DNA from: Acidithiobacillus ferridurans
Lineage (GTDB): Bacteria > Pseudomonadota > Gammaproteobacteria > Acidithiobacillales > Acidithiobacillaceae
Length of the DNA stretch: 64,000 nucleotides
Assembly (NCBI RefSeq): GCF_003966655.1
Contig: NZ_AP018795.1
Coordinates: forward strand, 2,001,501 to 2,065,500
Direction of reading: 5' to 3'
The first letter of the stretch is position 1, and the number at the start of each line of letters is the position of its first letter. This document shows, piece by piece, positions 11,793 through 36,180 of the stretch. The notes below the pieces were generated by a model. It saw nothing but the letters and a program-made list of their open reading frames with translations. It was not told the DNA's origin and did not search any database. A program made the position numbers and the translations under genes.

Positions 11793-11810
11793 GATCTCTG
11801 CTAAGAGATC
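11793..11810 (-). terminator. Hairpin at the end of nasT, possible terminator
   Basis: GATCTCT and AGAGATC form a perfect seven-pair stem around a four-base loop immediately beyond and touching the nasT stop codon. There is no T tract on the minus-strand side, so it may act only as a weak or Rho-assisted terminator or as a 3' stabiliser of the nir-nas transcript. Confidence 0.35.
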
Positions 11811-12387
11811 AAGAACTGCCTGCTTCGCCCACCGTAATTACCATTTCTGCAATTTCTCCTAGTTTTTTACCCTTGTCCATGGCGAGCCGCCGCATGCGCC
11901 GATAGGCTTCGGCTTCGTCAATCTGCAAGTCGCGCATGAGGATGCCCTTGGCTTTTTCAATTTGCTTGCGCTCGGCGAGGGCATTTTGGGTGTCTTTGAG
12001 TTCTTTGCGTAATTGCCGATATTCGGCATAGCGGAGCGCCGCCACCTTGAGAATAGGGGCAATATCCTGGGCGGAAATGCCGTGGGCAACATAGGCGGCA
12101 ACACCAGCACGAATAGCCCGGCGCATGGTGTCTTCATCTTCAGGGGCGCCCAGCACGACGACCGGTAGTTCCAGGGTTTCGCTGAGGAACACGATGTGTT
12201 CGAGCACGTCTCGTTCGGGGCTGCCCGCTTCGGCGATGATGACATCGGGCTGCAGATTTTCCAGACGTTGCCAGGAAAGCGCTGACCAGCCAAAAATATC
12301 CACGACAATCTGCCCCTCACTGGCGAGGGCATCCCGGAGGATTTCTGCACGCTCCACATTATTGTCGATCAGGACGATGCGACGCAT
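11809..12387 (-). CDS. nasT: NasT-type ANTAR-domain antiterminator
   Basis: NasT is an RNA-binding response-regulator-like protein which, when released by NasS in the presence of nitrate or nitrite, prevents termination in the leaders of nitrate assimilation operons. The 192-aa protein has an N-terminal receiver-like domain (MRRIVLIDNN...) and a C-terminal ANTAR domain (ERKQIEKAKGILMRD...EAYRRMRRLAMDKGKKLGEIAEMVI, residues about 140-185). The usual phospho-acceptor aspartate is replaced by Glu53 in PDVIIAEAGSP, so it is probably controlled by protein binding, not by phosphorylation. It is the last gene of the nirB operon, four bases after cbiX, and its likely targets (leaders of nirB, the transporter and nasS) lie in this window. 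Confidence 0.85.
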   Translation of the reverse strand: MRRIVLIDNNVERAEILRDALASEGQIVVDIFGWSALSWQRLENLQPDVIIAEAGSPERDVLEHIVFLSETLELPVVVLGAPEDEDTMRRAIRAGVAAYVAHGISAQDIAPILKVAALRYAEYRQLRKELKDTQNALAERKQIEKAKGILMRDLQIDEAEAYRRMRRLAMDKGKKLGEIAEMVITVGEAGSS

Positions 12388-12391
12388 GGGC

Positions 12392-12748
12392 TCATTGTAG
12401 CGCTTGCAAGGCGGCCTGGATGATGATTTCTGATTCGCCGATGGGCCCCTCTACCTGGAAGAAGCAATTGGGTAAAACTTTCTGAACCTGTTCAATAAGT
12501 GTTGGTAGATCTTCCTGTAAATGACGACCGCTACTCCAGAACAAGGGGGAAATGCGAAAGTGGCGGAAGCCCAATACATAGGCCTCCCGTATGGCCTGAT
12601 CCAGAGACGGTTCCCACATTTCCAGATAGCACAATACGATCCGTCGTTCTGGATGGGCGAGCTGTAGTCTTTCGGCGATCTGCTCAAAAGGTTTTCGCCA
12701 CTGGGGATTACGGGAACCGTGTGCCAGCAGAAATTGCACGTCTGTCAT
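12392..12748 (-). CDS. cbiX: CbiX/SirB-like sirohydrochlorin chelatase, short form
   Basis: Short CbiX-type chelatases insert Fe2+ or Co2+ into sirohydrochlorin. The 118-residue protein has the metal/substrate histidine in FLLAHGSRNPQW near the N-terminus and the second conserved segment ISPLFWSSGRHLQEDLP near residues 70-86. MTDVQFLLAHGS at 12748 is the natural start. It follows cobA by ten bases. Nitrite reductase NirB needs siroheme, so iron chelation to siroheme is the likely job here; chelation of cobalt or nickel cannot be excluded from sequence alone. Confidence 0.8.
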   Translation of the reverse strand: MTDVQFLLAHGSRNPQWRKPFEQIAERLQLAHPERRIVLCYLEMWEPSLDQAIREAYVLGFRHFRISPLFWSSGRHLQEDLPTLIEQVQKVLPNCFFQVEGPIGESEIIIQAALQALQ

Positions 12749-12758
12749 GCGCGCTCCC

Positions 12759-13547
12759 TTAAGGTTGTTGCAGGCGCTGTGAGGATAAAGTCGGTTCTCC
12801 GGGAAACCACGCACAAATATCTGCTAATCCCACAACAGCGCCAATAATTAGAATTGCCGGGCTGCCCAGCTCCGCTGCCTGGATCGCTACACTGAATTGC
12901 TGCAAGGGCGCCTGTACCTGTTTTTGCGTGATGGTCGCCCATTGTACCGCAAGACAGGGGGTTTCGGCAGCCAAACCGCCCGCTATTAATCCCTGACAGA
13001 TATCGGATATTCGTTCGATGCCCATGTAAATGACCAAGGTATCTGCCGCCCTGGCATAGCGTGACCAGTCTGGAGGGTGGCTGCCTCTAGCCTCGTGTCC
13101 CGTCAGGAAAATGACGGACTGACTACGATGGCGATGGGTGAGCGGTACGCCAGCATAAGCTGCTGCCGCCATTCCGCTGCTAATGCCGGGGATGATTTCG
13201 TAATCGATATGGGCGGCGCGCAGAGCCAGACATTCTTCACCTCCGCGCCCAAAGAGAAATGGATCTCCTCCCTTCAGACGGACAACCTTCAAGCCTTGTT
13301 GGGCAGAGCGGATCAAATGCTCATGAATACGCATCTGTGAGGTAGAGTCCTGCCCGCCCCGTTTACCCACTTCCACTTTTTTACACCCTGCTGACGCCAT
13401 GTTGAGCAGACAGGGATTGGCGAGGGCATCATAAAAAATGATATCGGCAGCTGCAATGCGCCGTGCTGCTTTGAGGGTGAGGAGTTCCGGATCGCCGGGA
13501 CCGGCACCCACGATGGAAACTGGGAATAGGGAGGTGATGAATGACAT
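12759..13547 (-). CDS. cobA: Uroporphyrinogen-III C-methyltransferase
   Basis: This enzyme methylates uroporphyrinogen III twice with S-adenosylmethionine to precorrin-2, the branch point to siroheme and cobalamin. The protein begins VSIVGAGPGDPELLTLKA, has VVRLKGGDPFLFGRGGEE near residue 88 and the PGISSGMAAAAYAGVPLTHR signature near 120, and lacks the dehydrogenase/ferrochelatase half of CysG. Length 262 aa is normal for the single-domain SUMT. It lies between the TrpD2-like gene and cbiX in the nitrite/nitrate reductase operon, so it supplies siroheme for NirB; the precorrin-2 oxidase step is not encoded here. Confidence 0.93.
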   Translation of the reverse strand: MSFITSLFPVSIVGAGPGDPELLTLKAARRIAAADIIFYDALANPCLLNMASAGCKKVEVGKRGGQDSTSQMRIHEHLIRSAQQGLKVVRLKGGDPFLFGRGGEECLALRAAHIDYEIIPGISSGMAAAAYAGVPLTHRHRSQSVIFLTGHEARGSHPPDWSRYARAADTLVIYMGIERISDICQGLIAGGLAAETPCLAVQWATITQKQVQAPLQQFSVAIQAAELGSPAILIIGAVVGLADICAWFPGEPTLSSQRLQQP

Positions 13548-13561
13548 GGCAAGGCTCCGGC

Positions 13562-14590
13562 TCAGGCTGCGTAATGGGAAAAGTGGTGAGCAAGATGGTG
13601 ATGGGCACTGTCCATATCTGTGCAGCGGCCACTAAGGCAAAGCAGGCACAATGCTTGATCGACCAAAGGAGAAGGAAGCGGCAATTGTCCGTCCAGTACG
13701 GCTTCCATATAGCGACAGGTAGACGAGATACCAGAGTTTTCGGGCAGCGCTGGAATTTGTTGCAAGGGCTGCGTGTCTTTTTCTATCCAGAGAACAGATT
13801 CGCCCTGCCGACAAACTTGCAAATCCGGGCGGCGCTTGGGATTGGCAAAACATTCCCCCTCGCTTCCCCGCAAAATGAGTGCCGTATTTTGTTCCTGCTG
13901 GAAGTATTCCTGCAGACGCAGCAGATAAGGCGGGTGGGTCACGCCGGCACAATGTACGGCGTGATCCTGGAAGGGGTTAAACAGCTTGACGATAGTGTGT
14001 ACGCTGGATCGCACACCGAGCTGCTGTCGCAAGGCCAGCATCTTGCCCAGACCTGGATGGAGGGTGTCCACCGGCAGGTAACTGAGACCCTGAAGATGCA
14101 GAAGGCTGTTGGCCTGGTGGCTATTTTCCGCGCTGGCCAGTCCAAATTCACGGAGAATGTCGGCACTGTGTACTCGCCCGGATGGATCATGGTCAGTCCA
14201 TGAGTACTTATTGGCATTATGGTCAACAGGGAACCCATGCATCAGTACCGGTACGCCGCAGCGGGTCAGGGTCATCGCCAGCAGCGGCAAGAGATTGGCC
14301 CCACGCAGGGTACCATTGTAACTGGGGAAAATGACCGGCTGGCAGTTGTGCTGGAAAGCGATGGGTTCAATATCTGCTTCCAGAGCATGTACAAAAGCGC
14401 GTAATTCTTCGACGCTCTCGCCCTTGATACGGTAGGCCGTCCATAGGGCGCCCATGGCCAGTTCCGGTAAGTCGCCGTGCAGCCAGTCCGTAAACAGGTT
14501 TTTGGCTTCTGCGTAGCTCAGGTCCTCCGCATGTTCACTCCCTCGGGCGACGCGGCCGATGATGCTGGTCATATTCAACTTCGCAGTCAT
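13562..14590 (-). CDS. TrpD2/YbiB-like glycosyltransferase-fold protein
   Basis: The 342-aa protein has the anthranilate phosphoribosyltransferase fold: an N-terminal helical domain (DLSYAEAKNLFTDWL...ELAMGALWTAYRIKGESVEELRAF) followed by an alpha/beta domain with FPSYNGTLRGANLLPLLAM and GVPVLMHG. It lacks the GTGGD-type PRPP loop of true TrpD, which places it in the TrpD2/YbiB group; E. coli YbiB binds nucleic acids, but the role in nitrate clusters is unknown. Its ATG overlaps the nasA stop (ATGA) and AGGAGGC precedes it, so it is co-translated with nasA. Such genes recur beside nasA in other proteobacteria, to my recollection. Confidence 0.75.
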   Translation of the reverse strand: MTAKLNMTSIIGRVARGSEHAEDLSYAEAKNLFTDWLHGDLPELAMGALWTAYRIKGESVEELRAFVHALEADIEPIAFQHNCQPVIFPSYNGTLRGANLLPLLAMTLTRCGVPVLMHGFPVDHNANKYSWTDHDPSGRVHSADILREFGLASAENSHQANSLLHLQGLSYLPVDTLHPGLGKMLALRQQLGVRSSVHTIVKLFNPFQDHAVHCAGVTHPPYLLRLQEYFQQEQNTALILRGSEGECFANPKRRPDLQVCRQGESVLWIEKDTQPLQQIPALPENSGISSTCRYMEAVLDGQLPLPSPLVDQALCLLCLSGRCTDMDSAHHHLAHHFSHYAA

Positions 14591-17373
14591 GATGCCTCCT
14601 GATGGACCATGCGAATCATCGACATGATTTCCGGTTTGCAGGAACCACATTCACCGCCGGCGCCGCAATCCTGGGCGATCTGCTTCAAGGTGATATTGCC
14701 AGCCGCAATGCTTTGCCGCAGCTGTTCTTCATTCACCCCCGTGCAGGCGCAAATGCCGCGTGAACGCGACCAGGCCGCCACATCTGGGGGTACTTTGGGT
14801 GCCAAGAGGGCATGACGGAAAGCATCGACATTGGTACCACTGAGCAGCAGTTCGCGCAGCCAGTCGCGCGTGCCATCTTCACCAAAAAGACGTGCAGCCA
14901 GCAGTTGTTTGCCCTGCATACACAGGCGTTTGCGGACATGGCGACGGGCATCGTCATAATCCAGCACCTCCAGACCGTCCATTCCCAGGGCCCGGTCCCA
15001 GGCATGAATATCCCGAATGGCTGGAGCTTCTTCTCCGGCAAGGCGCAAAATGAAGCCTTCCCGTCGGTCCTGGCGTATTCGGCTAAGGCTAGCATAGGGA
15101 AAGTGTCTGGCAATACGCTGTGCGGCCTGGAAATGTGCTTCGTCGCTGTTTAGGCGCAGGAGCGTGCCCTGCCAGGGGAAAATTGCCGGTTCTATGCGAA
15201 CCGCAGTGTGTTTGAACTCGGGCTCCCCGGAAACGGGATCAATGGCGGGCAAAGTGAGCTGGTTGCAAAGAGCAGCAGGCGCAAAGCGCCGACCAAAATG
15301 CATGGGGGCAAAAACCAGCCCTGGCTGCAGATTATGTTGAATACGGACCCGGAACACGTTATGACCACGCCGACTGATAACCCGGGCCAGATCCTCGTTT
15401 TTGAGTTGCAGCCGTTGCGCATCTTCCGGATGTATTTCCAGAAAAGCCTCCTCGTCACTGGCAAACAGTGCAGCAACCTTACCGGTACGACTCATGGAGT
15501 GCCATTGATCGCGCAAACGGCCGGTCGTGAGCCGGAGAGGGTAGCGGGCATCAATTTCTTCGGCAACTCCCTGAAACTCCGGAGCGTGAAAACGGGCGCG
15601 ACCACTGGGAGTAGGAAAAATACCATCACTATAAAGGCGCTCTTGCCCACTCCTGGCCCCAGTCGGGAAGGGCCATTGCTGCGGCCCCTGGCTATCCAGA
15701 AGCGCAAAGTCCAGACCGCTGATGTCCAGATCCCGTCCTTGGGTACAGCGCTGATATTCGCGGAAAATACTGGCAGAGTCTGGAAAATCGAACAGACGCT
15801 GTGCCCGGTCATGCCAACTGCTATCCCGATGATCGGGGAGGGGATGCTGGAGTTGATCCAACGCTTCTCCCAGGGCAAAAGCGAAATCCCGATAAATCAT
15901 CCAGTCGGGGCGCGCTTCTCCAGGAGCGGGTACGGCTGCGTGAAGATGACTGATGCGCCGTTCGGAATTGGTGATCAACGCTTCCCGTTCTCCCCAGCTG
16001 GCTGCGGGCAGGAGCAGATCACTATAGTCGGCGGTTTCGGTGCCCAGGTAACTATCTTGCAAAATGACTAGCCGGGCACGGTTCAGGGCCCTCTGAACTT
16101 GCTGTTGATCGGACATGGACAATACCGGATTGGTGCAACTGATCCAGATACTCTCAATTTCGCCCCGCTCCATAGCCTGAAACAGGGGGACTGCGGTGTA
16201 GCCTGGTTGGGGATGAATGCTGGAAATCTCCCAGAGGGCGGTCATTTCGGAACGGTGCTCGGGATTGGCAACTTCCCGATGACCGGGAAGCAGCGCGGGC
16301 ATGCCGCCTGTTTCCCGGCCACCCATGGCATTGGGCTGTCCGGTGAGGCTGAAAGGCCCGGCTCCGGGACGACCAATTTGCCCGGTCGCCAGATGCAAAT
16401 TGATGAGACTGACATTTTTGTCCGTACCATGACTGGATTGATTGAGTCCCTGACACCAAAGAGAGAGGACGCTGGAAGCTTTTCCAAAGGCCTGGGCAGC
16501 AGCGCGGAGCTCCGCTTCGGGAATATGGCAGGTTTCGGCGACCCGTTGCGGGGTATAATTCTGAACGCGGGCCTTGAGTTCTTCCCAGCCTTCGGTATGG
16601 GTTGTGATATAATCCCGGTCAATGTGATCCTCCCAAATCAGGATATGGAGCATGCCGTGGAACAGTGCGACATCCGTACCTGGTTGCAGGGGTAAAAAAA
16701 TGTCAGCGATGGATGCCGTGGGGGTGCGACGTGGATCCGCGACGATAATTTTGAGTTCCGGGCGACGCAATTTGGCTGCTTCAATCCGCCGAAACAGAAT
16801 GGGGTGAGCATAGGCTACATTGGCACCGACGATAAACAGACAATCGGTTTCCTCCAGATCTTCATAAGCACAGGGAACGGAATCCATCCCAAGGCTGAGT
16901 TTGTAACCTGTGACAGCGGAAGCCATACACAACCGGGAATTGGTATCAATATGATTGGTGCCAATAAATCCTTTGGCCAGTTTGTTGGCAACATAATAGT
17001 CTTCCGTGGGGAGTTGCCCCGAAACATAAAGGGCGACGGCCTGGGGTCCCTGCCGGTGAATGATTTCTGCCCAACTGCTCGCCATTTGTGCGAGCGCGTC
17101 CGACCAGGTAAGTGCTGTCCAGTCTCCGCTGAGACGGTCACGCCGAAGCGGCTCACCGGCTCGATCATTACCCTGACAGCTGAGATGCAGGGTGCTGCCC
17201 TTACTGCAGAGCTGGCCAAAATTGGCAGGATGATCGGGATCGCCGCGTACGCCGGTAATTTGCTGACCATCATGTTCTATGATGACGCCGCAGCCAGTCC
17301 CACAGTAAGGGCAAACAGATTTGCTTTCCAGGCGCTGCAGGGAGGTTGATTGTTGCGCGCGCAATAGGCTCAT
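14587..17373 (-). CDS. nasA: Assimilatory nitrate reductase catalytic subunit
   Basis: NasA reduces nitrate to nitrite in the cytoplasm with bis-MGD molybdenum. The 928-aa protein begins with the [4Fe-4S] site C21-x2-C24-x3-C28-x27-C56, continues with the molybdopterin oxidoreductase and molydopterin-dinucleotide binding domains (for example CQGLNQSSHGTDKN and QWHSMSRTGKV), and ends in a BFD-like [2Fe-2S] domain with CACTG and CGAGGECGSC. This domain order is that of the Klebsiella-type NasA that takes electrons from an NAD(P)H-linked partner. The start at 17373 overlaps the nirD stop (ATGA) and is preferred to an ATG 27 bases upstream inside nirD. No Tat signal is seen, consistent with a cytoplasmic enzyme. 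Confidence 0.95.
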   Translation of the reverse strand: MSLLRAQQSTSLQRLESKSVCPYCGTGCGVIIEHDGQQITGVRGDPDHPANFGQLCSKGSTLHLSCQGNDRAGEPLRRDRLSGDWTALTWSDALAQMASSWAEIIHRQGPQAVALYVSGQLPTEDYYVANKLAKGFIGTNHIDTNSRLCMASAVTGYKLSLGMDSVPCAYEDLEETDCLFIVGANVAYAHPILFRRIEAAKLRRPELKIIVADPRRTPTASIADIFLPLQPGTDVALFHGMLHILIWEDHIDRDYITTHTEGWEELKARVQNYTPQRVAETCHIPEAELRAAAQAFGKASSVLSLWCQGLNQSSHGTDKNVSLINLHLATGQIGRPGAGPFSLTGQPNAMGGRETGGMPALLPGHREVANPEHRSEMTALWEISSIHPQPGYTAVPLFQAMERGEIESIWISCTNPVLSMSDQQQVQRALNRARLVILQDSYLGTETADYSDLLLPAASWGEREALITNSERRISHLHAAVPAPGEARPDWMIYRDFAFALGEALDQLQHPLPDHRDSSWHDRAQRLFDFPDSASIFREYQRCTQGRDLDISGLDFALLDSQGPQQWPFPTGARSGQERLYSDGIFPTPSGRARFHAPEFQGVAEEIDARYPLRLTTGRLRDQWHSMSRTGKVAALFASDEEAFLEIHPEDAQRLQLKNEDLARVISRRGHNVFRVRIQHNLQPGLVFAPMHFGRRFAPAALCNQLTLPAIDPVSGEPEFKHTAVRIEPAIFPWQGTLLRLNSDEAHFQAAQRIARHFPYASLSRIRQDRREGFILRLAGEEAPAIRDIHAWDRALGMDGLEVLDYDDARRHVRKRLCMQGKQLLAARLFGEDGTRDWLRELLLSGTNVDAFRHALLAPKVPPDVAAWSRSRGICACTGVNEEQLRQSIAAGNITLKQIAQDCGAGGECGSCKPEIMSMIRMVHQEAS

Positions 17374-17690
17374 GGCGCTATTTCCTGCAAGCCCAGCCAA
17401 ATCTGCTCGCCTTCCATCCGGATGGGAAATCTTTTGACGCAGCCGGAATCCGGTGCCACAGCTTCGCCTTTTTCCAGATCAATTTGCCAGTTGTGCAAGG
17501 GGCAAAAAACCAGTTTTCCAGATACGAAGCCTTCGGACAGAGGACCGCCGCGATGGGGACATTGGTTGCTGACCGCGAAAACTTCATCATTTTCATTGCG
17601 CAGAATCGCTATCTGACCTTCCGGGGTTTCTACATAACGACCACCCCAAGCGGGAATTTCTTCAAGAGTGCCTAATGCCATCCATTCCAT
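17370..17690 (-). CDS. nirD: Nitrite reductase small subunit, Rieske-type
   Basis: NirD is the small subunit of the NADH-dependent assimilatory nitrite reductase. The 106-aa protein is one Rieske domain with CPHRGGPLSEG and CPLHNWQIDL, so all four C-x-H...C-x2-H ligands are present, unlike some NirD proteins that have lost them. The start at 17690 is fixed by GAGGAGAAC just upstream. It sits 10 bases after nirB and overlaps nasA. Confidence 0.93.
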   Translation of the reverse strand: MEWMALGTLEEIPAWGGRYVETPEGQIAILRNENDEVFAVSNQCPHRGGPLSEGFVSGKLVFCPLHNWQIDLEKGEAVAPDSGCVKRFPIRMEGEQIWLGLQEIAP

Positions 17691-17700
17691 GTTGTTCTCC

Positions 17701-20151
17701 TCAGGCCGGGATACGGCGCAGGGGTGCCGCGTGAATATCCAGACGACCGGATACGGCCTCTTTCCAGGGATCTTTTTCCTGAGACAGGGCAAAATCCATG
17801 CGTTCTGCCAGGGTTTTGCGGGCATGGGTGTCGTCGACTATCGTGGCTTTGATCTGCTCCAGTCCGACCCGTTCTACCCAGGGCGCGGTGCGTTCCAGGT
17901 ATTGGGCATTCTCTCGATACATCTGCAAAAAAGCCTTGGCCATTTCCAGAACCTCCTCGTGGGTTTTTACCTTGCAGAGCAGATCAGCAGCGCGCACTTT
18001 CATGCCGCCATTCCCACCCACATAGATTTCCCAGCCCGAATCCACGCCGATGATCCCCATGTCCTTGATGGTACTTTCGGCGCAATTGCGTGGACAACCA
18101 GATGCTGCGAGCTTGACCTTGTGGGGTGCCCACATGCGTTCGAGATTTTTTTCCAGTTCAATGGCAAGGCGGGTACTATCCTGCACTCCAAAACGGCAAA
18201 ACTCGCTGCCCACACAGGATTTGACGGTACGTAAAGTCTTACCGTAGGCATGGCCAGAAGGCATATCCAGATCGGCCCAGATTTTGGGCAGATCCTCTTT
18301 TTTTACCCCAAGCAGATCCAGACGCTGTCCGCCGGTAAATTTCACCATGGGGACGTGATGGCGCTCAGCAACTTCCGCAATACGTTTCAGTTCCGCAGGA
18401 CTGGTGACTCCCCCGTAAATGCGCGGAATGACAGAATAGGTACCGTCTTTCTGAATATTGGCATGGGCCCGCTCATTGATGAAGCGGGATTGGGGATCGT
18501 CCAGACCATCCATGGGCCAGGCTGTCCGCACATAGTAATTGACGGCTGGACGGCAGGTGGCGCAGCCGGCAGGATGGCGCCATTCCAGATAATCAAAGAC
18601 CTGGCGAACCGAGAGGAGCTTTTCCTTGATGATGGCGTCGCGCAGTTCCTGATGACTGAGTTCTGTACAGCCACACAGAGCCTTTTTCTTCGGGGTGCTG
18701 TCATAAAAACCGCCGAGGGTACTGGCTAGTAGCTGTTCCACAAGGCCAGTACATGAACCACAGGAAGCACTGGCCTTGGTGCATGTACGTACATCGTCGA
18801 GAGTAAATAAACCCTGTTCACGGATAGCTTTGACAATGCTGCTCTTGGCTACCCCATTACAGCCACAAATTTCGGCGGTGTCCGGCAGGCGTGTCGCCTG
18901 GTTTTCTCCGGCATGACCGGCATCCCCCAGATGGGTTTCACCAAAAACAATATTGTCCCGAAAGGCCGATACATCAGTGCCATCTCGCATGAGTTGAAAC
19001 AGCCAGGGACCGATGCTGGTATCTCCGTAGAGCAAGCTACCAACCACCTTGTTTTCCTGGAGAATGACCTTTTTGTATACGCCCTGACTGCCATCCAGCA
19101 AGGTAACTTCTTCGCAATCTTCGCCGCCCATGAAATTCCCTGCGGAAAACAGTTCGATGCCGGTAACCTTGAGCTTGGTGCTGGTGACAGAGCCCTGATA
19201 ACGCATCCGTCCGTACTCTGCCAAATGATTGGCCGCCACTTTGGCCTGTTCAAAAAGGGGGGCTACCAGTCCATAGGTCTGACCGCGATGCTGGACACAT
19301 TCTCCCACCGCATAAATGCGTGGATCGTAGGTTTGCAGGGTGTCATTGACCAAAATGCCGGTTTCACACTGTAAGCCTGCAGCCTGGGCCAGTTCGATGC
19401 GCGGTTTGATGCCGATGGTCATGACCAGCACATCCGCCTGCATTTCCGAGCCATCGGTAAAACTCAGCCCTGTGACATGTGTCGATCCCAGAATTTCTGC
19501 CGTTTCCTTACCCAGTAAAAACTGGACGCCCCTGGCTTCCATGGCTTTTTGCAAAAGAACGCCACCCCGTTGATCCAGTTGTTTGTCCAAAGGCCAAGCC
19601 CGACGATGAATGACGGTGACTTCCATTCCCCTTGTCCGCAGACCATGGGCTACCTCCAGCCCCAACAGGCCGCCACCGATGACCACGGCCTGCCCGCCGA
19701 GCGCGCTGCTTTTCGTTAGTGCCTCCACATCGGCCATATCCCGATAACTCAGTACGCCCGGCAAATGATTTCCAGGTACGGGAGCCATGGCGGCGGCTGC
19801 ACCGGTTGCCAGTAGCAAGCGGTCATAGGGCGTGGCTTTGCCGTCGGCGCTGATAACCAGACGTTTGACCCGATCAATGCTGGTCACCGGATTGCCAGTA
19901 TGCAGCGAAATATGATGCTCGGCGTACCAGTCCAGAGGATTGAGAATGGTCTCTTCCAGGGCCATTTCCCCTGCCAGCACCGGAGTCAGGAGAATCCGGT
20001 TGTAGTTGGGATGGGGTTCGGCACCGAACACGCTGATGTCATAAAGATCAGGTGCCATTTTCAAGAGTTCTTCGACCGCACGGATGCCGGCCATGCCATT
20101 GCCAACAACGACCAGGCGAGGTTTCTGTGAAACTGTAGTCAGACTGTGCAT
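17701..20151 (-). CDS. nirB: Nitrite reductase [NAD(P)H] large subunit
   Basis: NirB reduces nitrite to ammonium with six electrons from NADH, using FAD, [4Fe-4S] and siroheme. The 816-aa chain has an N-terminal FAD/NAD module (RLVVVGNGMAGIRAVEELL; second Rossmann motif AVVIGGGLLGLEVAHGL near 155), two BFD-like [2Fe-2S] domains (CGCNGV and CGCTEL), and the siroheme/[4Fe-4S] sulfite-reductase-like domain with C-x5-C (SCVGSEFCRFG) and C-x3-C (GCPRNCAES). It heads the operon nirB-nirD-nasA-trpD2-like-cobA-cbiX-nasT. Its leader contains a sigma-54 promoter, hexaloop hairpin and terminator. Confidence 0.96.
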   Translation of the reverse strand: MHSLTTVSQKPRLVVVGNGMAGIRAVEELLKMAPDLYDISVFGAEPHPNYNRILLTPVLAGEMALEETILNPLDWYAEHHISLHTGNPVTSIDRVKRLVISADGKATPYDRLLLATGAAAAMAPVPGNHLPGVLSYRDMADVEALTKSSALGGQAVVIGGGLLGLEVAHGLRTRGMEVTVIHRRAWPLDKQLDQRGGVLLQKAMEARGVQFLLGKETAEILGSTHVTGLSFTDGSEMQADVLVMTIGIKPRIELAQAAGLQCETGILVNDTLQTYDPRIYAVGECVQHRGQTYGLVAPLFEQAKVAANHLAEYGRMRYQGSVTSTKLKVTGIELFSAGNFMGGEDCEEVTLLDGSQGVYKKVILQENKVVGSLLYGDTSIGPWLFQLMRDGTDVSAFRDNIVFGETHLGDAGHAGENQATRLPDTAEICGCNGVAKSSIVKAIREQGLFTLDDVRTCTKASASCGSCTGLVEQLLASTLGGFYDSTPKKKALCGCTELSHQELRDAIIKEKLLSVRQVFDYLEWRHPAGCATCRPAVNYYVRTAWPMDGLDDPQSRFINERAHANIQKDGTYSVIPRIYGGVTSPAELKRIAEVAERHHVPMVKFTGGQRLDLLGVKKEDLPKIWADLDMPSGHAYGKTLRTVKSCVGSEFCRFGVQDSTRLAIELEKNLERMWAPHKVKLAASGCPRNCAESTIKDMGIIGVDSGWEIYVGGNGGMKVRAADLLCKVKTHEEVLEMAKAFLQMYRENAQYLERTAPWVERVGLEQIKATIVDDTHARKTLAERMDFALSQEKDPWKEAVSGRLDIHAAPLRRIPA

Positions 20152-20170
20152 TGCTGGGCTCCCAAAATAG

Positions 20171-20210
20171 AAAAAAGGCGTCAGTCAGCTGAATTGCTGA
20201 CGACGCCTTT
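20171..20210 (-). terminator. Leader terminator upstream of nirB
   Basis: On the minus strand AAAGGCGTC and GTCAGC pair with GCTGAC and GACGCCTTT around a six-base AATTCA loop with one bulged base, followed by six T. It ends 19 bases before the nirB ATG and lies between promoter and gene, so it must be overcome for expression: the expected target of NasT. Confidence 0.75.
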
Positions 20211-20226
20211 GCCGTTTTGCATGGTG

Positions 20227-20244
20227 ACGACTCTCGCGAATCGT
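20227..20244 (-). promoter_or_regulatory. Hexaloop hairpin in the nirB leader, candidate NasT-binding RNA
   Basis: Minus-strand ACGATT-CGCGAG-AGTCGT folds to a six-pair stem (one G-T pair) with a six-base loop, four bases after the predicted transcription start. ANTAR proteins bind hexaloops with A at position 1 and G at position 4; here only G4 is kept, so this is a weaker candidate than the other two leaders. Confidence 0.45.
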
Positions 20245-20258
20245 TTTGCAATCTGTTA

Positions 20259-20274
20259 AGCAATAGACATGCCT
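20259..20274 (-). promoter_or_regulatory. Sigma-54 promoter of the nirB operon
   Basis: Minus-strand AGGCATGTCTATTGCT has the invariant GG (20273-20272) and GC (20261-20260) separated by ten bases, with the TTGC form of the -12 element. The start would be near 20248, giving a leader of about 97 bases. Confidence 0.7.
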
Positions 20275-20346
20275 GGAATTGATCGTAATAAAAACAGTTT
20301 GTTAAGTTTTAGAACTTTAATCGGGTTGATAAATATCAGTGCAAGG

Positions 20347-20374
20347 TATGGTGCAGCTGCACCATATTGGTGCG
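20347..20374. promoter_or_regulatory. NtrC-like enhancer sites upstream of nirB
   Basis: A perfect 20-base palindrome (20347-20366) overlaps TGCACCATATTGGTGCG (20358-20374), which matches the NtrC consensus TGCACC-N5-GGTGCA except for the last base. The sites are centred about 108 and 118 bases before the predicted sigma-54 start, the usual enhancer distance. Confidence 0.65.
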
Positions 20375-20392
20375 GCGGATCGGGCTGCCCGA

Positions 20393-21637
20393 CTAGAATT
20401 TCGCATCGACAAACACCCAGGCCCCTTCGGTATTGACCCCATAGGTACTCCGCCGATAGTCAGCATATTGCACCCCGGCACTCCAATGTCTGGAGAAGCC
20501 ATGGGTTACGGATAGATCCAACTCATTTCCGTAATGGGCAGTACCATGATCGGCCTGAAAATCGTAATAGATGGCCATCAGTTGGGTTTTCATGATTTTT
20601 CCGGCGACGCTAAAGTAGAGGCTACGCAGCCCCTTTGGGGGAGTGGTAAGGAATACCTCTGCCCAACCATTGAAGGCGTGCTTGGTGGCCAATGGGGTCT
20701 GAAAGCCGTAGGTACCCTGAGGATTGGCGCCCATCACCATGTAATTGGCATGGACTGCAACTGATGGCAGGACCAATCCGGTACCCAGGTGATAGTAGGA
20801 GGCATGGACGTCGGCACTACCCCTATCATAGGGCAACTGGCGGGCATAGCTCAGATCGTAGGGAAGTTTTAAGCCATGGGCGAGAGGAATGGCGCCTTCG
20901 ACCCGCAACCCCAGCGTTTGGCTGTTGCACACCTGAGCATTTCCAGACAAAAAACAGGCGGCGGCACCGGGTATGGCACTATGGGCCTGATTGCCATACC
21001 AATAGCCAAAAGCCTGTGTGTGAATCAACGAAGAGGGTGACCAGCTGATTTCGCTGAGCATGGTTTGTGATGGCACATTTTCATTCAGTATATTCTTGAT
21101 GCGCCATATATAGGCGCCGTAAATCGCTAGGTCCTCCAAGGGTTTTCCAGAGATGGATACTGAATCAAAAGTTTGCGGAGTCTGGCGGAAACCCACAGCA
21201 CCAACAAAACGTTCATCATCCAGATTGATTTCCTGCCGACCTGCACGCAGTTTCCATGCAGGAATACCGGCAAATTGCAGATAGGCCTGATTGATGTTGC
21301 TTTCACTCGGATCGGGAATGACAGAATACGCCGTTTTGTCATTGCGTAAGCTATTGTACTGATTGATGATGCCCGCTACGTTGATGAACTGCAAATCAGC
21401 ACTGAAACCGGCAATGGGTTTGCTGCTGAGGCCCAGTAGCGTCTGTACGGTAAAGGCATTTGCATCTTTTTTCTCGGTTTGTGACATGAATTCATAACGA
21501 GGACGAAAATCCAGATGAACCTGACCTTGGGTAATGGCATCGCTCAGAGTGTCTGCGCCGGCCCAACTTCCTGCCAAAGTGATCAGTAGAGCGTTCATAA
21601 CGGCGAGATGCACAGCAGTTTTTTTTAGAGAAGGCAT
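20393..21637 (-). CDS. Outer-membrane porin, alginate-export-like beta barrel
   Basis: A 414-aa protein with a cleavable signal peptide (hydrophobic core NALLITLAGSWAGA, residues about 15-28), alternating polar/hydrophobic strands throughout and a C-terminal phenylalanine, as in outer-membrane barrels. The segment FDFRP-like HLDFRPRYEFMSQ, LRAGRQEINLDDERFVGAVGFRQ and the strand pattern resemble the alginate-export/AlgE-like porin family. It lies between the nitrate transporter and nirB on the same strand, so nitrate/nitrite entry across the outer membrane is the likely role; the substrate is inferred only from context. Confidence 0.75.
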   Translation of the reverse strand: MPSLKKTAVHLAVMNALLITLAGSWAGADTLSDAITQGQVHLDFRPRYEFMSQTEKKDANAFTVQTLLGLSSKPIAGFSADLQFINVAGIINQYNSLRNDKTAYSVIPDPSESNINQAYLQFAGIPAWKLRAGRQEINLDDERFVGAVGFRQTPQTFDSVSISGKPLEDLAIYGAYIWRIKNILNENVPSQTMLSEISWSPSSLIHTQAFGYWYGNQAHSAIPGAAACFLSGNAQVCNSQTLGLRVEGAIPLAHGLKLPYDLSYARQLPYDRGSADVHASYYHLGTGLVLPSVAVHANYMVMGANPQGTYGFQTPLATKHAFNGWAEVFLTTPPKGLRSLYFSVAGKIMKTQLMAIYYDFQADHGTAHYGNELDLSVTHGFSRHWSAGVQYADYRRSTYGVNTEGAWVFVDAKF

Positions 21638-21757
21638 GATCTGGTCTCCAGAATAAATTTAGCCATGAAATCATGGATAAAGAGCGCAGAACTCCCGATG
21701 CGTCAGCAAACGCATCTGGAAAAACCGCAAGTTGTGATGAGGGACTTTAGTGAAAAC

Positions 21758-23164
21758 TCAGTCAGTAACGGCGTTAGCTTCGGATAAAGCTGAGGGCGTT
21801 TCCTCCATGGCTACAGCCATCGTTCCATGATGAGACCAGCTTAACCACTGCTGGCGCAGAACGAATACCAGCCCCAGTGCAATGCTCGTCAGCACGGCGA
21901 AGAAGGCAAAGCCCAGATGATAAGTGCCGGTTTCCTGCTTGGTGATACCCAGAATAACGGGCAGATAAAAGCCCCCCACTCCACCCGCAGCACCAATAAT
22001 GCCGGTCATGATGCCCGTTTTTTCAGGCCAGCGCAGGGGAACCAGTTGAAACGTGGCACCATTTCCCAGACCGAAGCAGGCATATAGGATCAGTAAAAAA
22101 AAGATGGCCAGATTCAGAGGGGGTGTCCAGGTTGCAAACAGGATATCCATCAGGGCGATACCGCCTAAAAACCAGCGTAGCGCAGCTGCGCCCGAGATCC
22201 GGTCAGCAACCATGCCGCCCAGAGGCCGCAACATAGCTCCGGTAAAAGCAAATAATGCCATCAACATACCGGCATCAATTTTAGGCAAAAGGTAAAGAGC
22301 AACCAAAAGCAGGCTGACATAAGCAGACATACCGACAAATCCACCGAAGGTGATGGCGTATATGAGGATAATTACCCAGGTATCTCGTTCGCGGAGGGCC
22401 AGTCGATAGCGTCGCGGGAGAAAAATCCCCGTCAGCAGTACGCCATATACGGGTAGCATCAGGAGGGCGGATTTACCCTGCAATCCCAGCCATCCCATAG
22501 GTGTTGCTACGGCCAGAAGAGACAAGCCCGCTAGAGTAACCACAAAGCCCAACAATGCGGGTCCTGCCCGACCACTTTTGGCGGCGCTATCCTTACCCCA
22601 GAAAAACAGGCTCACACCGGCCAGAGCCAGCAAGGGCAGGGCAGCAGCCGTTGCGTGTGCCCAGCCAAAATGCGCGGCCAAAGGCGGAAACAGAAATCCA
22701 TCCAGAACCGCTCCAATGTTTCCAGCAGCAGCTATGCCCAATACGGTTCCCTGCACTTTAGCGGGATAATTGCTTCCGGCCATGGGCAGGGCAACTGCAA
22801 AACTGGCTCCGCCGACGCCCAGTAATACACCAAGCACTATGAGCAACGAGTAGCTGGGTACTCCAGGATGGATCAGCAGGAAGAGAGGCGGAATAGCAGA
22901 TAGCGCGACACCACCCATCGCCAGCCAGCGGCCATCCATACTTTGGTAAAGATTGCCCATACCCACCCGCAAAATCGCTGCAGAGAGGATGGGTACCGCG
23001 ACTAAAAAGCCTTGTTCCGCATCGGTCAGATGCAAGGAATGAATCATGTAGGGGGCCAGTGGGCCATACAACAACCAGACGGTAAAACCCGTATCGAAAT
23101 ACAGAAAGCTGGCGACCAAGGCGCGCCAGTTTCCACTACGGAGCATAGTCAAAAGTTCTTTCAT
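21758..23164 (-). CDS. Nitrate/nitrite transporter, NarK/NasA MFS family
   Basis: A 468-residue major-facilitator protein with about twelve hydrophobic helices. The first half carries the nitrate-porter signature region GVGGASFAVALPMAGSNYP (about residues 117-135) and the second half the duplicate FGLGNGATFQLVPLRWPEKTGIMTGI; both are the nitrate-signature positions of the NNP family. It takes up nitrate (possibly exporting nitrite). The gene has its own sigma-54 promoter and leader terminator and is followed by the porin after 120 bases. Confidence 0.92.
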   Translation of the reverse strand: MKELLTMLRSGNWRALVASFLYFDTGFTVWLLYGPLAPYMIHSLHLTDAEQGFLVAVPILSAAILRVGMGNLYQSMDGRWLAMGGVALSAIPPLFLLIHPGVPSYSLLIVLGVLLGVGGASFAVALPMAGSNYPAKVQGTVLGIAAAGNIGAVLDGFLFPPLAAHFGWAHATAAALPLLALAGVSLFFWGKDSAAKSGRAGPALLGFVVTLAGLSLLAVATPMGWLGLQGKSALLMLPVYGVLLTGIFLPRRYRLALRERDTWVIILIYAITFGGFVGMSAYVSLLLVALYLLPKIDAGMLMALFAFTGAMLRPLGGMVADRISGAAALRWFLGGIALMDILFATWTPPLNLAIFFLLILYACFGLGNGATFQLVPLRWPEKTGIMTGIIGAAGGVGGFYLPVILGITKQETGTYHLGFAFFAVLTSIALGLVFVLRQQWLSWSHHGTMAVAMEETPSALSEANAVTD

Positions 23165-23196
23165 GGTGCATCCCTCGAGCGCTGATAAAATTCAAA

Positions 23197-23237
23197 GAAA
23201 AAGGCGCTCCCGGCTCATCTGAGCCAGGAACGCCTTC
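23197..23237 (-). terminator. Leader terminator upstream of the nitrate transporter gene
   Basis: Minus-strand AAGGCGTTCCTGGCTC pairs with GAGCCGGGAGCGCCTT around AGAT, with one internal mismatch, and is followed by TTTC. It ends about 32 bases before the ATG at 23164. Confidence 0.75.
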
Positions 23238-23248
23238 GTCCCAAAACG

Positions 23249-23266
23249 CTGTTCATCGGTGAACAG
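23249..23266 (-). promoter_or_regulatory. ANTAR-type hexaloop hairpin in the transporter leader
   Basis: CTGTTC-ACCGAT-GAACAG is a perfect six-pair stem with a hexaloop carrying A at position 1 and G at position 4, the bases known to be needed for ANTAR binding. It begins five bases after the predicted start and precedes the leader terminator. Confidence 0.65.
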
Positions 23267-23281
23267 TGCTTAATTGTGTTC

Positions 23282-23297
23282 AGCATTTTTCATGCCA
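23282..23297 (-). promoter_or_regulatory. Sigma-54 promoter of the nitrate transporter gene
   Basis: TGGCATGAAAAATGCT on the minus strand has GG (23296-23295) and GC (23284-23283) ten bases apart, close to TGGCAC-N5-TTGCT. The start would be near 23271. Confidence 0.7.
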
Positions 23298-23384
23298 GAA
23301 TTTATTGGCTACCATGAATCAGTATGTTAAGGTCTTGGACAGGGTCTTTTTGCAATGGTCCTGCTGGCAATGAATGGGCGAATC

Positions 23385-23423
23385 TGGTGCATATTCCCTG
23401 AAACGGGGCACAATGATGGTGCG
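23385..23423. promoter_or_regulatory. NtrC-like enhancer sites of the transporter promoter
   Basis: GGCACAATGATGGTGCG (23407-23423) keeps the GCAC-N7-GTGC core of NtrC sites, and a half-site TGGTGCA lies at 23385-23391. They are about 144 and 117 bases upstream of the predicted start. Confidence 0.5.
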
Positions 23424-23430
23424 CCCCAGC

Positions 23431-24591
23431 TCAGGGTGTGACGGTGCTCCCATCAAAAATCAGGTTGGGGCCCATGGTAATAGGATGCCCTTCCTCACTC
23501 TGGACCTGCCAGGATTTGGCGTGGTTTCCCCAGTCGATAAAATCCGTTTTTGGAACAGGAATCTGCAGCACTTTTGCTGCTTGCCGATAGATATCGCAAC
23601 GATATACCTGTGGAATCAATGTCTCGCTATCCACACCTTGAGGCCATTGACCAGCCGTCTGCATTTGTCGAGCCAGCCACATCGCATGGGAATGCCAGGG
23701 AAAATTGGCCGAGTAACGCGCAAATACATGAAAATCCTCCTGCTGAGTCAGGCCTGGTACGTTACCACTTAATGCCATGGCCACAACTTCCCGAGGAACC
23801 CCAATGGCTGCGGCAACCCAGGGTACCGCTTCTAAACGGTGTTGAGGGTTATCCAGCCAATGACTGGCGGTCAGGATGGCTCGAATCATTGCCAGATATA
23901 AGTCGGGCTCGCGCTGTGACCAGTCATTCCGTACGGCTAATACCTTTTCCATCAGGTTATTCCAGAGTGCGTAACTGCTGACAATCGGAATACCCACGTT
24001 TTCTGCAGCTGCCAGACTTCCCCAAGGCTCCCCCACGCAATAACCATCTATTTCTCCAGCGCGCAACGCGGCGACCATATAGCGAGGCGGAACCACGGTG
24101 ATTTGAATATCCTGGTCCGGATCGATACCAGCTGCACGTAGCCAGTGCCGCAGTTGATAATGATGGTTGGACACCGGAGAAACGACGGCAACACGCAATT
24201 TTTTCGCAGGCTCTGTCTGAATAATGCGGCGCAACGCCCGGGCAGCGGCGAGGACATGCTCCTCTCCCGTATATCCCGTATCGCGGAGCCGTTGGTGCAA
24301 AGCATGACTGACGGTAATGGCATTTCCATTCAGGGAGAGCGTCAGCGCCGTACTCACCGGTATTCTGGGGGAAGCAATTCCCAGCGTTGCCGCCATAGGC
24401 AATGGCGCCAGAGCGTGGGCAGCAACCAGATCTCCAAAGAGCAGATGGTCACGTAAACTGGCCCAGGAAGGCTCCTGTTGCAAACTCACTGCGAGTCCTT
24501 CAGCCGCAAAAAAACCCAACTCACGAGCCACAATCAAGGGTGCGCTATCCGTCAGTGCGACAAAACCTATGTTGAGATTCTCACCGCTCAT
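23431..24591 (-). CDS. nasS: NasS-type cytoplasmic nitrate/nitrite sensor (NrtA-like)
   Basis: The 386-aa protein is homologous to the periplasmic nitrate-binding proteins NrtA/NasF (LNIGFVALTDSAPLIVARELGFFAAEGL at the start; GYCVGEPWGSLAAAENVG near 200) but has no signal peptide or lipobox, so it stays in the cytoplasm. That is the hallmark of NasS, which binds NasT and releases it when nitrate or nitrite is present. There is no ABC permease or ATPase for it to serve in the cluster, which argues against a transport role. It is the first gene of the nitrate block, while its partner nasT is the last. It has its own sigma-54 promoter and leader terminator. Confidence 0.82.
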   Translation of the reverse strand: MSGENLNIGFVALTDSAPLIVARELGFFAAEGLAVSLQQEPSWASLRDHLLFGDLVAAHALAPLPMAATLGIASPRIPVSTALTLSLNGNAITVSHALHQRLRDTGYTGEEHVLAAARALRRIIQTEPAKKLRVAVVSPVSNHHYQLRHWLRAAGIDPDQDIQITVVPPRYMVAALRAGEIDGYCVGEPWGSLAAAENVGIPIVSSYALWNNLMEKVLAVRNDWSQREPDLYLAMIRAILTASHWLDNPQHRLEAVPWVAAAIGVPREVVAMALSGNVPGLTQQEDFHVFARYSANFPWHSHAMWLARQMQTAGQWPQGVDSETLIPQVYRCDIYRQAAKVLQIPVPKTDFIDWGNHAKSWQVQSEEGHPITMGPNLIFDGSTVTP

Positions 24592-24619
24592 TTTTCCTCC
24601 CAGTACCCGACGTTATTAC

Positions 24620-24654
24620 AAAAAAACCTCGCGCCCCATAGTGGGTGCGCGAGG
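24620..24654 (-). terminator. Leader terminator upstream of nasS
   Basis: Minus-strand CCTCGCGC and CCCA pair with TGGG and GCGCGAGG around CTA with one bulged A, followed by seven T. It lies about 29 bases before the nasS ATG. Its first two bases are also the 3' end of the preceding hexaloop hairpin. Confidence 0.8.
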
Positions 24655-24666
24655 ACTTCATTGTCC
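24653..24666 (-). promoter_or_regulatory. ANTAR-type hexaloop hairpin in the nasS leader
   Basis: GGAC-AATGAA-GTCC has a hexaloop with A1 and G4, at +8 to +21 from the predicted start. The stem is only four pairs, but its last two bases overlap the base of the terminator, so the two structures compete, as expected for an antiterminator switch. Confidence 0.55.
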
Positions 24667-24683
24667 AGACTGCAGGGTTATGA

Positions 24684-24699
24684 AGCAATTCTTGGGCCA
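24684..24699 (-). promoter_or_regulatory. Sigma-54 promoter of nasS
   Basis: TGGCCCAAGAATTGCT has GG (24698-24697) and GC (24686-24685) ten bases apart, with the consensus TTGCT -12 element. The start would be near 24673. No well-spaced NtrC site was found upstream. Confidence 0.65.
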
Positions 24700-24798
24700 G
24701 CCTTGTTGAGGTCGGAAGTGCCTGATCGGTGATTCTTGCACTTGCGGTGCCGCCAAGTGATGACTATCCTGCATTTTTTCCGATGAGAACACATTTTG

Positions 24799-25488
24799 AT
24801 GGAAGCAATCGCAGACAATGCATCATCACTCCTGCGTGAAACTTCGCTTTTTTCGGCCTGGCCCGAAGCGTTGCTGAATACCTTACTGACACAAAGCAAA
24901 AAGGTCACTTTGGGCTCGGGCGATATTCTCTTTGTCGAAAAGGCGACCGCAAACGCGTTTTATCTGGTCCTTTCTGGTCGTATCCACCTGATTGCCGCCG
25001 CCGCCACCGGACAGGAAAAAATCGTCGAAATCATTCAGATAAACGATCTGTTTGCCGAAGCAGTTGCTTTTCTAGGCGGGTGTTATCCGGTCACTGCTGC
25101 AGCAGATGGGCCGACGACAGTTCTGGAAATTCCGCTCGCATTGTTTCTAGAAATTCTGGAGCAAAAGCCCCAGTTGATGCGGCAGATGCTGGCGCGGCTC
25201 AGTATGCGCCTGCATTTTTTGGTCAAGGAGCTGCGTCATCTGAGTGTGGAGTCGGCAGAGCAGCGCTTGGCCAGCTATCTGCTGGAGTTGTGTCCGGTAG
25301 TCAATAACCCCGCGGTCATTGAACTCCCCGCCAAGAAAGCGGCGGTCGCGGCGCGTTTGGGCTTGACGCCGGAGACGCTGTCGCGGGTGTTGTCCCGAAT
25401 GCGTAAGGCAGGACTCATAGAAGTGGAACAACGGACGATCAGCATTCCCGATCCTCTTGCCTTACGGCGCTGGGCCGGCGGGCACTGA
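24799..25488 (+). CDS. Crp/Fnr-family transcription regulator, DNR-like
   Basis: A 229-aa protein with an N-terminal cyclic-nucleotide-binding-like beta barrel (GSGDILFVEKATANAFYLVLSGRIHL, about 40-65), a dimer helix (LMRQMLARLSMRLHFLVKEL) and a C-terminal winged helix whose recognition segment is AARLGLTPETLSRVLSRMRKAGLIEV. That helix resembles the E-x2-S-R type of Fnr/Dnr proteins, which read TTGAT half-sites. No Fnr-type N-terminal cysteine cluster is present, so oxygen sensing through Fe-S is unlikely; a DNR-like haem/NO sensor is more probable. It is divergent from nasS. The ATG at 24799 is preferred to a TTG three bases before it. Confidence 0.8.
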   Translation: MEAIADNASSLLRETSLFSAWPEALLNTLLTQSKKVTLGSGDILFVEKATANAFYLVLSGRIHLIAAAATGQEKIVEIIQINDLFAEAVAFLGGCYPVTAAADGPTTVLEIPLALFLEILEQKPQLMRQMLARLSMRLHFLVKELRHLSVESAEQRLASYLLELCPVVNNPAVIELPAKKAAVAARLGLTPETLSRVLSRMRKAGLIEVEQRTISIPDPLALRRWAGGH

Positions 25489-35788: not shown

Positions 35789-36180
35789 GTGCGCCGGGCA
35801 TGGCGCGTTACTTTATAGGTGAAAGTCCTATGGCTAGGTCTGCAGAGCCGAAGGCAAGGAGAAGGGCAAGGGCGTCGTCGCGAGGCGGGGTCTGAAGGAA
35901 GCGCAATCCGAAACGGCGGGGCGATGAACAAACAAAAACCGGATAGGAGGCGTGATGCATTCGGGACGAGCGAGCACGTGACCGCAAAGTCCACCATCTG
36001 CGATTGGGTGCATTTTGTAAATCCGGGATCCAGCAAGCCATTGCGCAAGTGCTGTCCGTGCAATGGGAATCCCACTTCCACCCGCACAGCTACGGCTTCC
36101 GCCCCAACCGCTCGGCGCACCAGGCGATCCGCCAAAAGATCTGGTGCGGGAACTGACCCGTCGTACAAGAGGCAAACACA
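35789..36180 (+). mobile_element. Decayed group II intron
   Basis: The segment opens with GTGCGCCGGGCATGGCGCG and continues with GGTGAAAGTCC and GGTCTGAAGGAAGCG, the 5' end and domain I landmarks of bacterial group II introns. The domain is followed, after a large deletion, by two short pieces of reverse transcriptase. Domains V and VI and the 3' boundary were not found, so the intron is not mobile. Confidence 0.7.
36025..36175 (+). pseudogene. Fragments of group II intron reverse transcriptase
   Basis: One frame reads IQQAIAQVLSVQWESHFHPH then SYGFRPNRSAHQAIRQ (36025-36132), the RT region around the YGFRP motif; it ends at a TGA at 36154. A second frame, from 36138, reads DLVRELTRRTRGK, like the segment near the start of the X/maturase domain. 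The catalytic YADD block between them is deleted. Confidence 0.65.

Follow-up and report, generated by a model that had tools for sequence, protein, structure and literature searches.

The nitrate block and its regulators

We analysed a 64,000-nucleotide stretch of Acidithiobacillus ferridurans DNA (the window; positions 2,001,501 to 2,065,500 of contig NZ_AP018795.1, from a genome of one contig and 2.92 Mb), which carries on its minus strand a block of nitrate assimilation genes that includes those for the nitrate sensor NasS and the RNA-binding regulator NasT. Reading of the open reading frames together with profile searches gave the order nasS, then nrt and a porin gene, then nirB-nirD-nasA-trpD2/ybiB-cobA-cbiX-nasT. 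These gene calls bear out the view of an initial annotation of this DNA that three separate units lie here, with NasS and NasT encoded at opposite ends of the block. Judged from sequence, the block is probably one regulon with three non-equivalent ANTAR-type leaders. Its genes are as follows.

23431..24591, minus strand: nasS, cytoplasmic NrtA/CmpA-like nitrate sensor (Pfam NMT1_2, 253 bits)
21758..23164, minus strand: nrt, NarK-type major facilitator superfamily nitrate/nitrite transporter (TIGR00886, 247 bits, under the curated cut-off of 311.7)
20393..21637, minus strand: alginate-export/Opr-like porin in the transporter unit (profile searches)
17701..20151, minus strand: nirB, nitrite reductase large subunit (TIGR02374, 925 bits)
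17370..17690, minus strand: nirD, nitrite reductase small subunit (TIGR02378, 90 bits)
14587..17400, minus strand: nasA, assimilatory nitrate reductase (molybdopterin domains and a C-terminal BFD-like [2Fe-2S] domain; the NCBIfam matches shown are all under their own cut-offs)
13562..14650, minus strand: trpD2/ybiB (NF006005 YbiB, 297 bits, cut-off 185)
12759..13547, minus strand: cobA, uroporphyrinogen-III methyltransferase (siroheme; TIGR01469, 287 bits, cut-off 185)
12392..12748, minus strand: cbiX, sirohydrochlorin chelatase (Pfam CbiX, 82 bits)
11809..12387, minus strand: nasT, receiver-like and ANTAR RNA-binding domains, last gene of the predicted nirB operon

Genes, sites, structures, conservation and energies were computed directly, and the starts of nirD and cbiX were chosen by eye. 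Unless stated otherwise, counts are across the family of the window's host. The extent of the operons is a prediction; gene order is identical in the family members whose fetched stretch spans the block, and at one locus (L042) about 6 kb separates the porin gene from nirB in an order otherwise as in the window. The nasS gene was present in 18 of the 29 family genomes searched, and an ANTAR protein in 28 of 57 genomes, the window's own among them. One genome with nasS and no ANTAR match (G011) was set aside as a candidate natural loss of nasT, because the position of nasS makes it likely that the nasT end of the block falls off that contig. A CbiX-NasT fusion suggested by long open frames was dropped because the two genes lie in different reading frames (one locus reckoned).

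The genome encodes one RpoN, and the sigma-54 activator domain is matched 15 times, strongly in 12 cases. Ten proteins from the activator loci were examined (nine of those with strong matches, plus a kinase encoded next to one of them), and NtrC (783.7 bits, cut-off 558.6), NtrB (300.5, cut-off 240) and NifA (705, cut-off 528.85) scored over curated cut-offs. No ANTAR protein other than NasT was matched in the genome; the Pfam scores of NasT are 72.5 bits for ANTAR and 31.8 bits for Response_reg. NasT aligns with EutV across its full length and is identical to it at the seven RNA contacts R142, K143, K147, K149, E160, Y164 and M172 (numbered by hand), the residues named in PMC8934654; here and below, published work is cited from the parts of each text that were available. 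Unlike EutV, which is phosphorylated, NasT of the window's genus has Glu at the phospho-acceptor position (11/11 in a comparison of the window with relatives L032-L051, with Asp in 7/7 of sister genera), and its receiver has probably given up phosphorylation.

The N terminus of NasS was found by eye to be without a signal sequence, and the solved structures closest to it in sequence are CmpC/NrtC chains, among them a C-terminal regulatory domain on its own, with NrtA coming next. Together these observations argue against the periplasmic, nrtA label given in 2008 to the corresponding gene of Acidithiobacillus thiooxidans, which was called a periplasmic transport component (Levican et al. 2008; PMC2607301). 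That region likewise brings together an nrtA-like gene, narK, nirB, nirD, narB, cysG and nasT; its nrtA-like gene is the nasS of the present work, and the available text of that paper describes neither a leader RNA nor a NasS-NasT circuit. Homologues of NasS at L204, L206, L208 and L210 have N termini that look, by eye, like twin-arginine translocation signals. In a NasS tree the family's proteins form one clade (support 99/98), the placement of which among the class homologues the tree did not resolve.

Promoters of the three units

In each unit a sigma-54-type site is followed by the predicted transcription start, a hairpin and an intrinsic terminator, all before the first start codon, as had been proposed in the initial annotation. 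Their positions are conserved in relatives.

24684..24699, minus strand: sigma-54-like -24/-12 site of nasS, TGGCCCAAGAATTGCT (conserved place and score)
23282..23297, minus strand: sigma-54-like site of nrt, TGGCATGAAAAATGCT (conserved place and score)
20259..20274, minus strand: sigma-54-like site of nirB, AGGCATGTCTATTGCT (conserved place and score)
20359..20373, minus strand: NtrC-like palindrome upstream of nirB, GCACCAATATGGTGC (11/12 consensus positions)

Sites were scored with a weighted -24/-12 consensus. Seven sites scoring at least 19.5 were found on the two strands of the window together, as against 5.8 in shuffles; taken alone, a site of this score is not rare. Because single-site scores do not go beyond chance, the sigma-54 reading rests on position and conservation: the site at the conserved place is the top scorer within up to 400 upstream bases in 16/16 nirB, 13/13 nrt and 12/13 nasS regions. 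The nasS site (24699-24684) falls where the initial annotation had ended the block. Five nasS genes (L348-L352) have TG in place of GG at -24. Another GG-N10-GC, at 24752-24737, is not conserved among relatives and was discarded as a candidate nasS promoter for that reason.

NtrC-like palindromes were scored against a 12-position consensus, with a threshold of at least 10 of 12 positions. Boxes of this quality occur in 14/16 nirB and 5/13 nrt upstream regions, compared with 1.9% of shuffled regions. On these box counts, predicted NtrC control is supported at nirB, weakly so at nrt and not at nasS. The earlier proposal of sigma-54/NtrC initiation therefore stands for the sigma-54-type sites at all three units, with RpoN, NtrB and NtrC encoded in the genome; its NtrC half finds support at nirB, weak support at nrt and none at nasS. 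Acidithiobacillia sigma factors were surveyed in 2025 in a paper that proposed NtrB/NtrC as possible regulators of nitrate/nitrite use, and the word NasT is absent from its main text (PMC12194929).

The nrt and nirB leaders

ANTAR-type antiterminators are described here in terms of a recruitment hairpin (P1) and an antiterminator hairpin (P2), each with a hexaloop whose signature is A at position 1 and G at position 4 (A1 and G4). The initial annotation had taken the three hairpins to be alike, which they are not: the first hairpin of the nasS leader is P2, the P1 loop of nirB lacks the A1/G4 signature, and nrt alone is fully dual. Fold z-scores in the window were -7.3 for nrt, -4.8 for nirB and -2.2 for nasS, for which 3 of 200 shuffles fold as well. 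P2 is conserved in sequence in all three leaders, and the same motif occurs in class outgroups; its stems differ by compensating letters (GGAC/GUCC in nasS, CGGC/GUCG in nirB, GGRAC/GUUCC in nrt).

Left out of the leader counts were L045, L046 and L048, whose contigs end before the leaders, together with L057 and L050 for nrt and nasS, and L042 in most nrt and nasS counts. For the final start and cost counts (n = 17-18) we added G019 (the genome of L042), G001, G007, G011 and G017. Automatic A1/G4 counts for P1 were 11/13 for nrt and 1/16 for nirB; the counts at aligned positions, used here, were 12/13 and 0/16, the two differing because of a stem mismatch in L055 and an unaligned alternative hairpin in L051. 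The cost of P2 is given as the energy in kcal/mol needed to force it, a value that shifts by a few kcal/mol with the chosen 3' end.

23249..23266, minus strand: nrt P1 hairpin CTGTTC-ACCGAT-GAACAG, with A1 and G4 (covariation and loop conservation)
23227..23242, minus strand: nrt P2 hairpin GGGAC-GAAGGC-GTTCC, with G1 and G4 (motif and conservation)
23198..23236, minus strand: nrt terminator, taking in most of P2 (fold)

Both sides of the nrt P1 stem have changed in 5/8 pairs, and the number of cells paired, the number of doubly changed cells and the covariation score all exceed 500/500 shuffles. The P1 loop has A1 in 12/13 and G4 in 13/13. In P2, G4 is found in 18/18, A1 in 2/18 and G1 in 16/18, so that position 1 of this loop departs from the dual-hexaloop rule; an invariant G4 beside a variable position 1 fits the view that G4 is the base contacted. 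P2 begins at +30 to +32 of the predicted starts and costs 12.9-18.0 kcal/mol in 18/18, the window's own value being 20.2 or 17.5 kcal/mol depending on the 3' end, and the terminator is paired in 94.7% of cells. On these folds and counts the nrt leader is a classical dual-hexaloop antiterminator, whose P2 is predicted to be exclusive with the terminator.

20227..20244, minus strand: nirB P1 hairpin ACGAUU-CGCGAG-AGUCGU, loop without A1 (covarying stem)
20201..20214, minus strand: nirB P2 hairpin CGGC-AAAGGC-GTCG, with A1 and G4 (motif and conservation)
20171..20210, minus strand: nirB terminator, taking in the P2 loop and 3' arm (fold)

The nirB P1 stem is paired in 100% of cells, with both sides changed in 4/6 pairs, and none of the covariation measures is equalled by more than 1 of 500 shuffles. 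At this covarying stem the loop has A1 in 0/16 and G4 in 5/16 (four CGCGAG, plus UCUGGA in L050, which can close to a tetraloop), and in the second genus the loop has five bases in 6/6. P2 has A1 and G4 in 16/16, at a cost of 10.2-19.1 kcal/mol in 16/16. The nirB leader thus appears to be one that keeps the P1 stem and has mostly lost its recognition loop, and it does not qualify as a dual-hexaloop leader.

At gathering thresholds Rfam matched no leader in the window. Besides one unrelated match, a permissive search of the window returned two fitting families that fall short of their thresholds: narK RNA on the nirB leader (29.6 bits, gathering 43.2) and P11, which we take to be the Pseudomonas NalA leader, on the nrt leader (28.2 bits, gathering 70); neither family matched the nasS leader in that search. 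A nirB leader of a class relative (L244) reaches 126 bits with P11, well over the gathering score of 70.

Class relatives were sampled as the leaders found by script in 58 class loci plus L124; the leaders of L202 and L226 escaped the script. A P1 with the A1/G4 loop and a stem of at least four pairs is present in 11/16. By eye, L208, L230 and L231 have CCC-AAYGGC-GGG, with three pairs; the L124 loop has G4 only and L225 has no clear P1. P2 costs 6.9-17.4 kcal/mol in 16/16, the lowest value (6.9, L225) coming nearest to nasS. The order-level outgroup L354 has dual hairpins (by eye).

It might be argued that this is an ordinary sigma-54/NasST regulon as in Pseudomonas, in which the leader differences are neutral drift of no regulatory effect. 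A review that reports such dual control for nirBD (PMC12830290) speaks for this. Drift does not sit well with differences that are uniform for each leader: P1 is lacking from nasS in 17/17, A1 from the nirB P1 loop in all 16, and the nrt P1 loop keeps both signature bases nearly throughout (A1 12/13, G4 13/13). We regard it as rather unlikely.

The nasS leader

24653..24666, minus strand: nasS P2 hairpin GGAC-AATGAA-GTCC, with A1 and G4 (from predicted +8, no P1)
24620..24654, minus strand: nasS intrinsic terminator, CCTCGCGC/GCGCGAGG plus T7 (overlaps P2 by two bases)

In 17/17 nasS genes of two genera P2 lies at predicted +1 to +9 with A1 and G4 in its loop, and costs 1.0-4.2 kcal/mol. A P1 with an A1/G4 hexaloop was looked for from the promoter to P2 and over the 60 bases preceding the promoter, and was found in 0/13. 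In the window, the plain terminator stem and P2 share just the two bases, and in the best predicted fold some of the P2 region is paired to the U-tract as well; forming P2 removes the U-tract and basal pairs, and the upper terminator stem stays. Within the family the P2 pairing is argued from sequence conservation, since it never covaries.

The 18th nasS gene (L353, genome G017), from a third genus, has P2 at +21 with a cost of 16.5 kcal/mol and full terminator competition, preceded by a short non-hexaloop stem (by eye). This leader is an apparent intermediate. The P1-less, loosely coupled form looks derived, because the third genus competes fully and the dual form is the common state in the class sample. 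In the same genome the nrt leader has a canonical P1 with the loop AATGGC (by eye).

Tentatively, and with somewhat less than even confidence, we read the nasS leader as a minimal single-hexaloop ANTAR switch, at which NasT would trim the base of the terminator or be titrated, the three leaders being graded targets. The same leader could instead be a constitutive attenuator with a relic P2, so that NasT governs nrt and nirB only and the terminator keeps NasS low. Such a relic would explain why P2 is short (3-4 base pairs; folded by itself it has -0.7 to -4.0 kcal/mol in four leaders tested), why P1 is missing, why competition with the terminator is slight and why an NtrC box was not found. It leaves unexplained that GACA-R-N-G-N-M-GTCC is kept in 17/17 genes of two genera while the preceding bases drift, when a plain terminator stem needs just CC; that A1 and G4 are invariant; and that the third genus (L353) has a fully competing P2 at the same place. 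We consider a relic unlikely.

A further alternative, which seems to us quite improbable, is that termination at nasS yields a decoy RNA of about 48-54 nucleotides whose exposed hexaloop titrates NasT, as EutX/Rli55 has been suggested to do with EutV. At 1.0-4.2 kcal/mol, P2 can form together with most of the terminator stem in 17/17 (structures inspected in four), and PMC8934654 suggests single-hexaloop sites outside antitermination, naming EutX. A decoy would need plentiful leader RNA, and the hairpin is single and weak. Titration and antitermination at nasS are compatible readings, not exclusive ones.

We also searched for similar leaders elsewhere. A covariance model of the nasS leader (R1) gave nasS as its one clear match in a search of the genome, at 72.7 bits, the next matches reaching 19.9 and 19.0 bits, the latter inside a long open frame. 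A pattern search of the genome collection for P1-less leaders returned at least 120 stretches, the pattern being too loose; among these stretches five loci matched some block protein, and the one of them that was followed, a nirB leader at L124, has a P1-like hairpin (by eye). Neither a NasT leader before nasS nor a P1-less ANTAR antiterminator was found in a literature search made by title or start of abstract, in which few subscription journals were covered.

A proposed two-key model of nitrate control

We consider it probable that the block is a two-key nitrate regulon that includes its own regulators, with NasT freed by nitrate acting at all three leaders. Under a shortage of fixed nitrogen, sigma-54 polymerase would start the three transcripts, with phospho-NtrC most likely acting at nirB and probably at nrt, and each transcript would meet a terminator before its first gene. 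In the presence of nitrate, cytoplasmic NasS would let go of NasT, which would bind G4-type hexaloops and allow polymerase to pass the terminator. At nrt this would follow the classical route through P1 and P2, and at nirB it would occur mainly via P2, given a P1 stem with its recognition loop mostly lost. At nasS, P2 alone at the 5' end would trim a few basal terminator pairs, at and next to the U-tract. Because P2 takes only these few pairs, the two states of the nasS leader are nearly equal in energy, and modest NasT binding could therefore tip the balance without a recruitment hairpin. The gene positions would make feedback positive through NasT, encoded last in the nirB operon, and negative through NasS, encoded behind a NasT-type leader.

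Several observations weigh against this model. None of the 13 nasS upstream regions has an NtrC-like box of at least 10 of 12 positions, and a different activator or a housekeeping promoter could serve this gene; upstream of the window's own nrt the best box is a weak one of 9/12 positions. In nrt P1, the pairs changed (150/500) and the pair types (493/500) do not exceed shuffles, and one outer pair is unpaired in 8/13. In the window the nirB P1-P2 linker has 12 bases, the upper limit for the Enterococcus faecalis eut leaders, where it spans 5-12 (PMC3369931). P2 of nasS shows no compensatory change, with the outer pair missing in 4/12, and a leader without P1 might not respond, because EutV needs P1 in vivo. 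The weakest step of the model is the action of NasT at nasS: P2 never covaries there, the search for an NtrC box was negative, and the relic and decoy readings are both still in play.

Relation to known systems

The initial annotation knew of no description of the full circuit in an acidophilic chemolithotroph. The combination is not new in kind, because Pseudomonas is already known to pair sigma-54/NtrC with NasS/NasT control: a 2026 review (PMC12830290), resting on Pseudomonas work (Romeo et al. 2012; Nie et al. 2024), describes the nirBD leader NalA under a sigma-54/NtrC promoter with NasT antitermination. The likeness to NalA extends to the nirB-first operon, a predicted sigma-54/NtrC promoter, a leader terminator that NasT would relieve and a P2 motif as in Rfam P11. 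The present block differs from it in having three leaders, nasT within the nirB operon, a nasS leader without P1 and a nirB P1 that has mostly lost its recognition loop.

In Paracoccus denitrificans (nasTS-nasABGHC) the NasS-NasT complex and the binding of NasT to leader RNA have been shown (PMC3795266, PMC5424462). Release of NasT from NasS by nitrate, NasT binding to leader RNA and the involvement of NtrC, all reported there, are proposed here as well. In Paracoccus, however, nasT and nasS share a transcript next to the structural operon, and the RNA target described in the available texts is the nasA leader.

Another parallel is Enterococcus faecalis EutV, with which the present system shares identical ANTAR RNA-contact residues, the G4 hexaloop and competition between P2 and terminator. 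Induction by EutV was lost when P1 was deleted, and altering conserved residues of the loop reduced induction or binding (PMC3369931). The nasS leader, in contrast, has no P1, and its P2 hardly competes with the terminator. According to PMC8934654 one hexaloop is the minimal ANTAR site, yet P1 is held to be required as a recruitment hairpin for antitermination, and the role of single-hexaloop sites is raised as a question. Because the EutV work holds P1 to be required, the nasS leader is a natural test case for how little an ANTAR-type RNA switch needs. It offers a conserved single hexaloop right before a terminator, with a dual-hexaloop leader of its own regulon as internal control; with the apparent intermediate at L353, the question is therefore testable with three short RNAs and one protein. 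The model would also give concrete wiring for nitrate use in acidophilic autotrophs, with one activator loop and one inhibitor loop.

Regulon size and neighbouring features

A bare P2-core pattern gave 78 matches in the genome compared with 85 for a reversed control, and is not enriched. Five of the 77 distinct matches have a terminator-like hairpin in reach, namely the three nas leaders, L291 and L296. The latter two fall within long open reading frames; L291 lacks a GG-N10-GC, and that of L296 is of low quality. No fourth leader of this make-up was found outside coding sequence among the 77 motif matches. By the P2-core motif, the predicted regulon comprises three leaders; more divergent hairpins would be missed.

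Most members of the window's genus have, next to nasS and divergent from it, a gene for a Crp/Fnr-like regulator (24796-25488; named by eye), and no homologue was found adjoining nasS in L051 or in the sister genus. The TrpD2/YbiB-type gene (13562-14650) sits within the nitrate operon and is retained there in syntenic family members. Elsewhere in the window, a group II intron domain match was found at 35874-36046 (82.1 bits).

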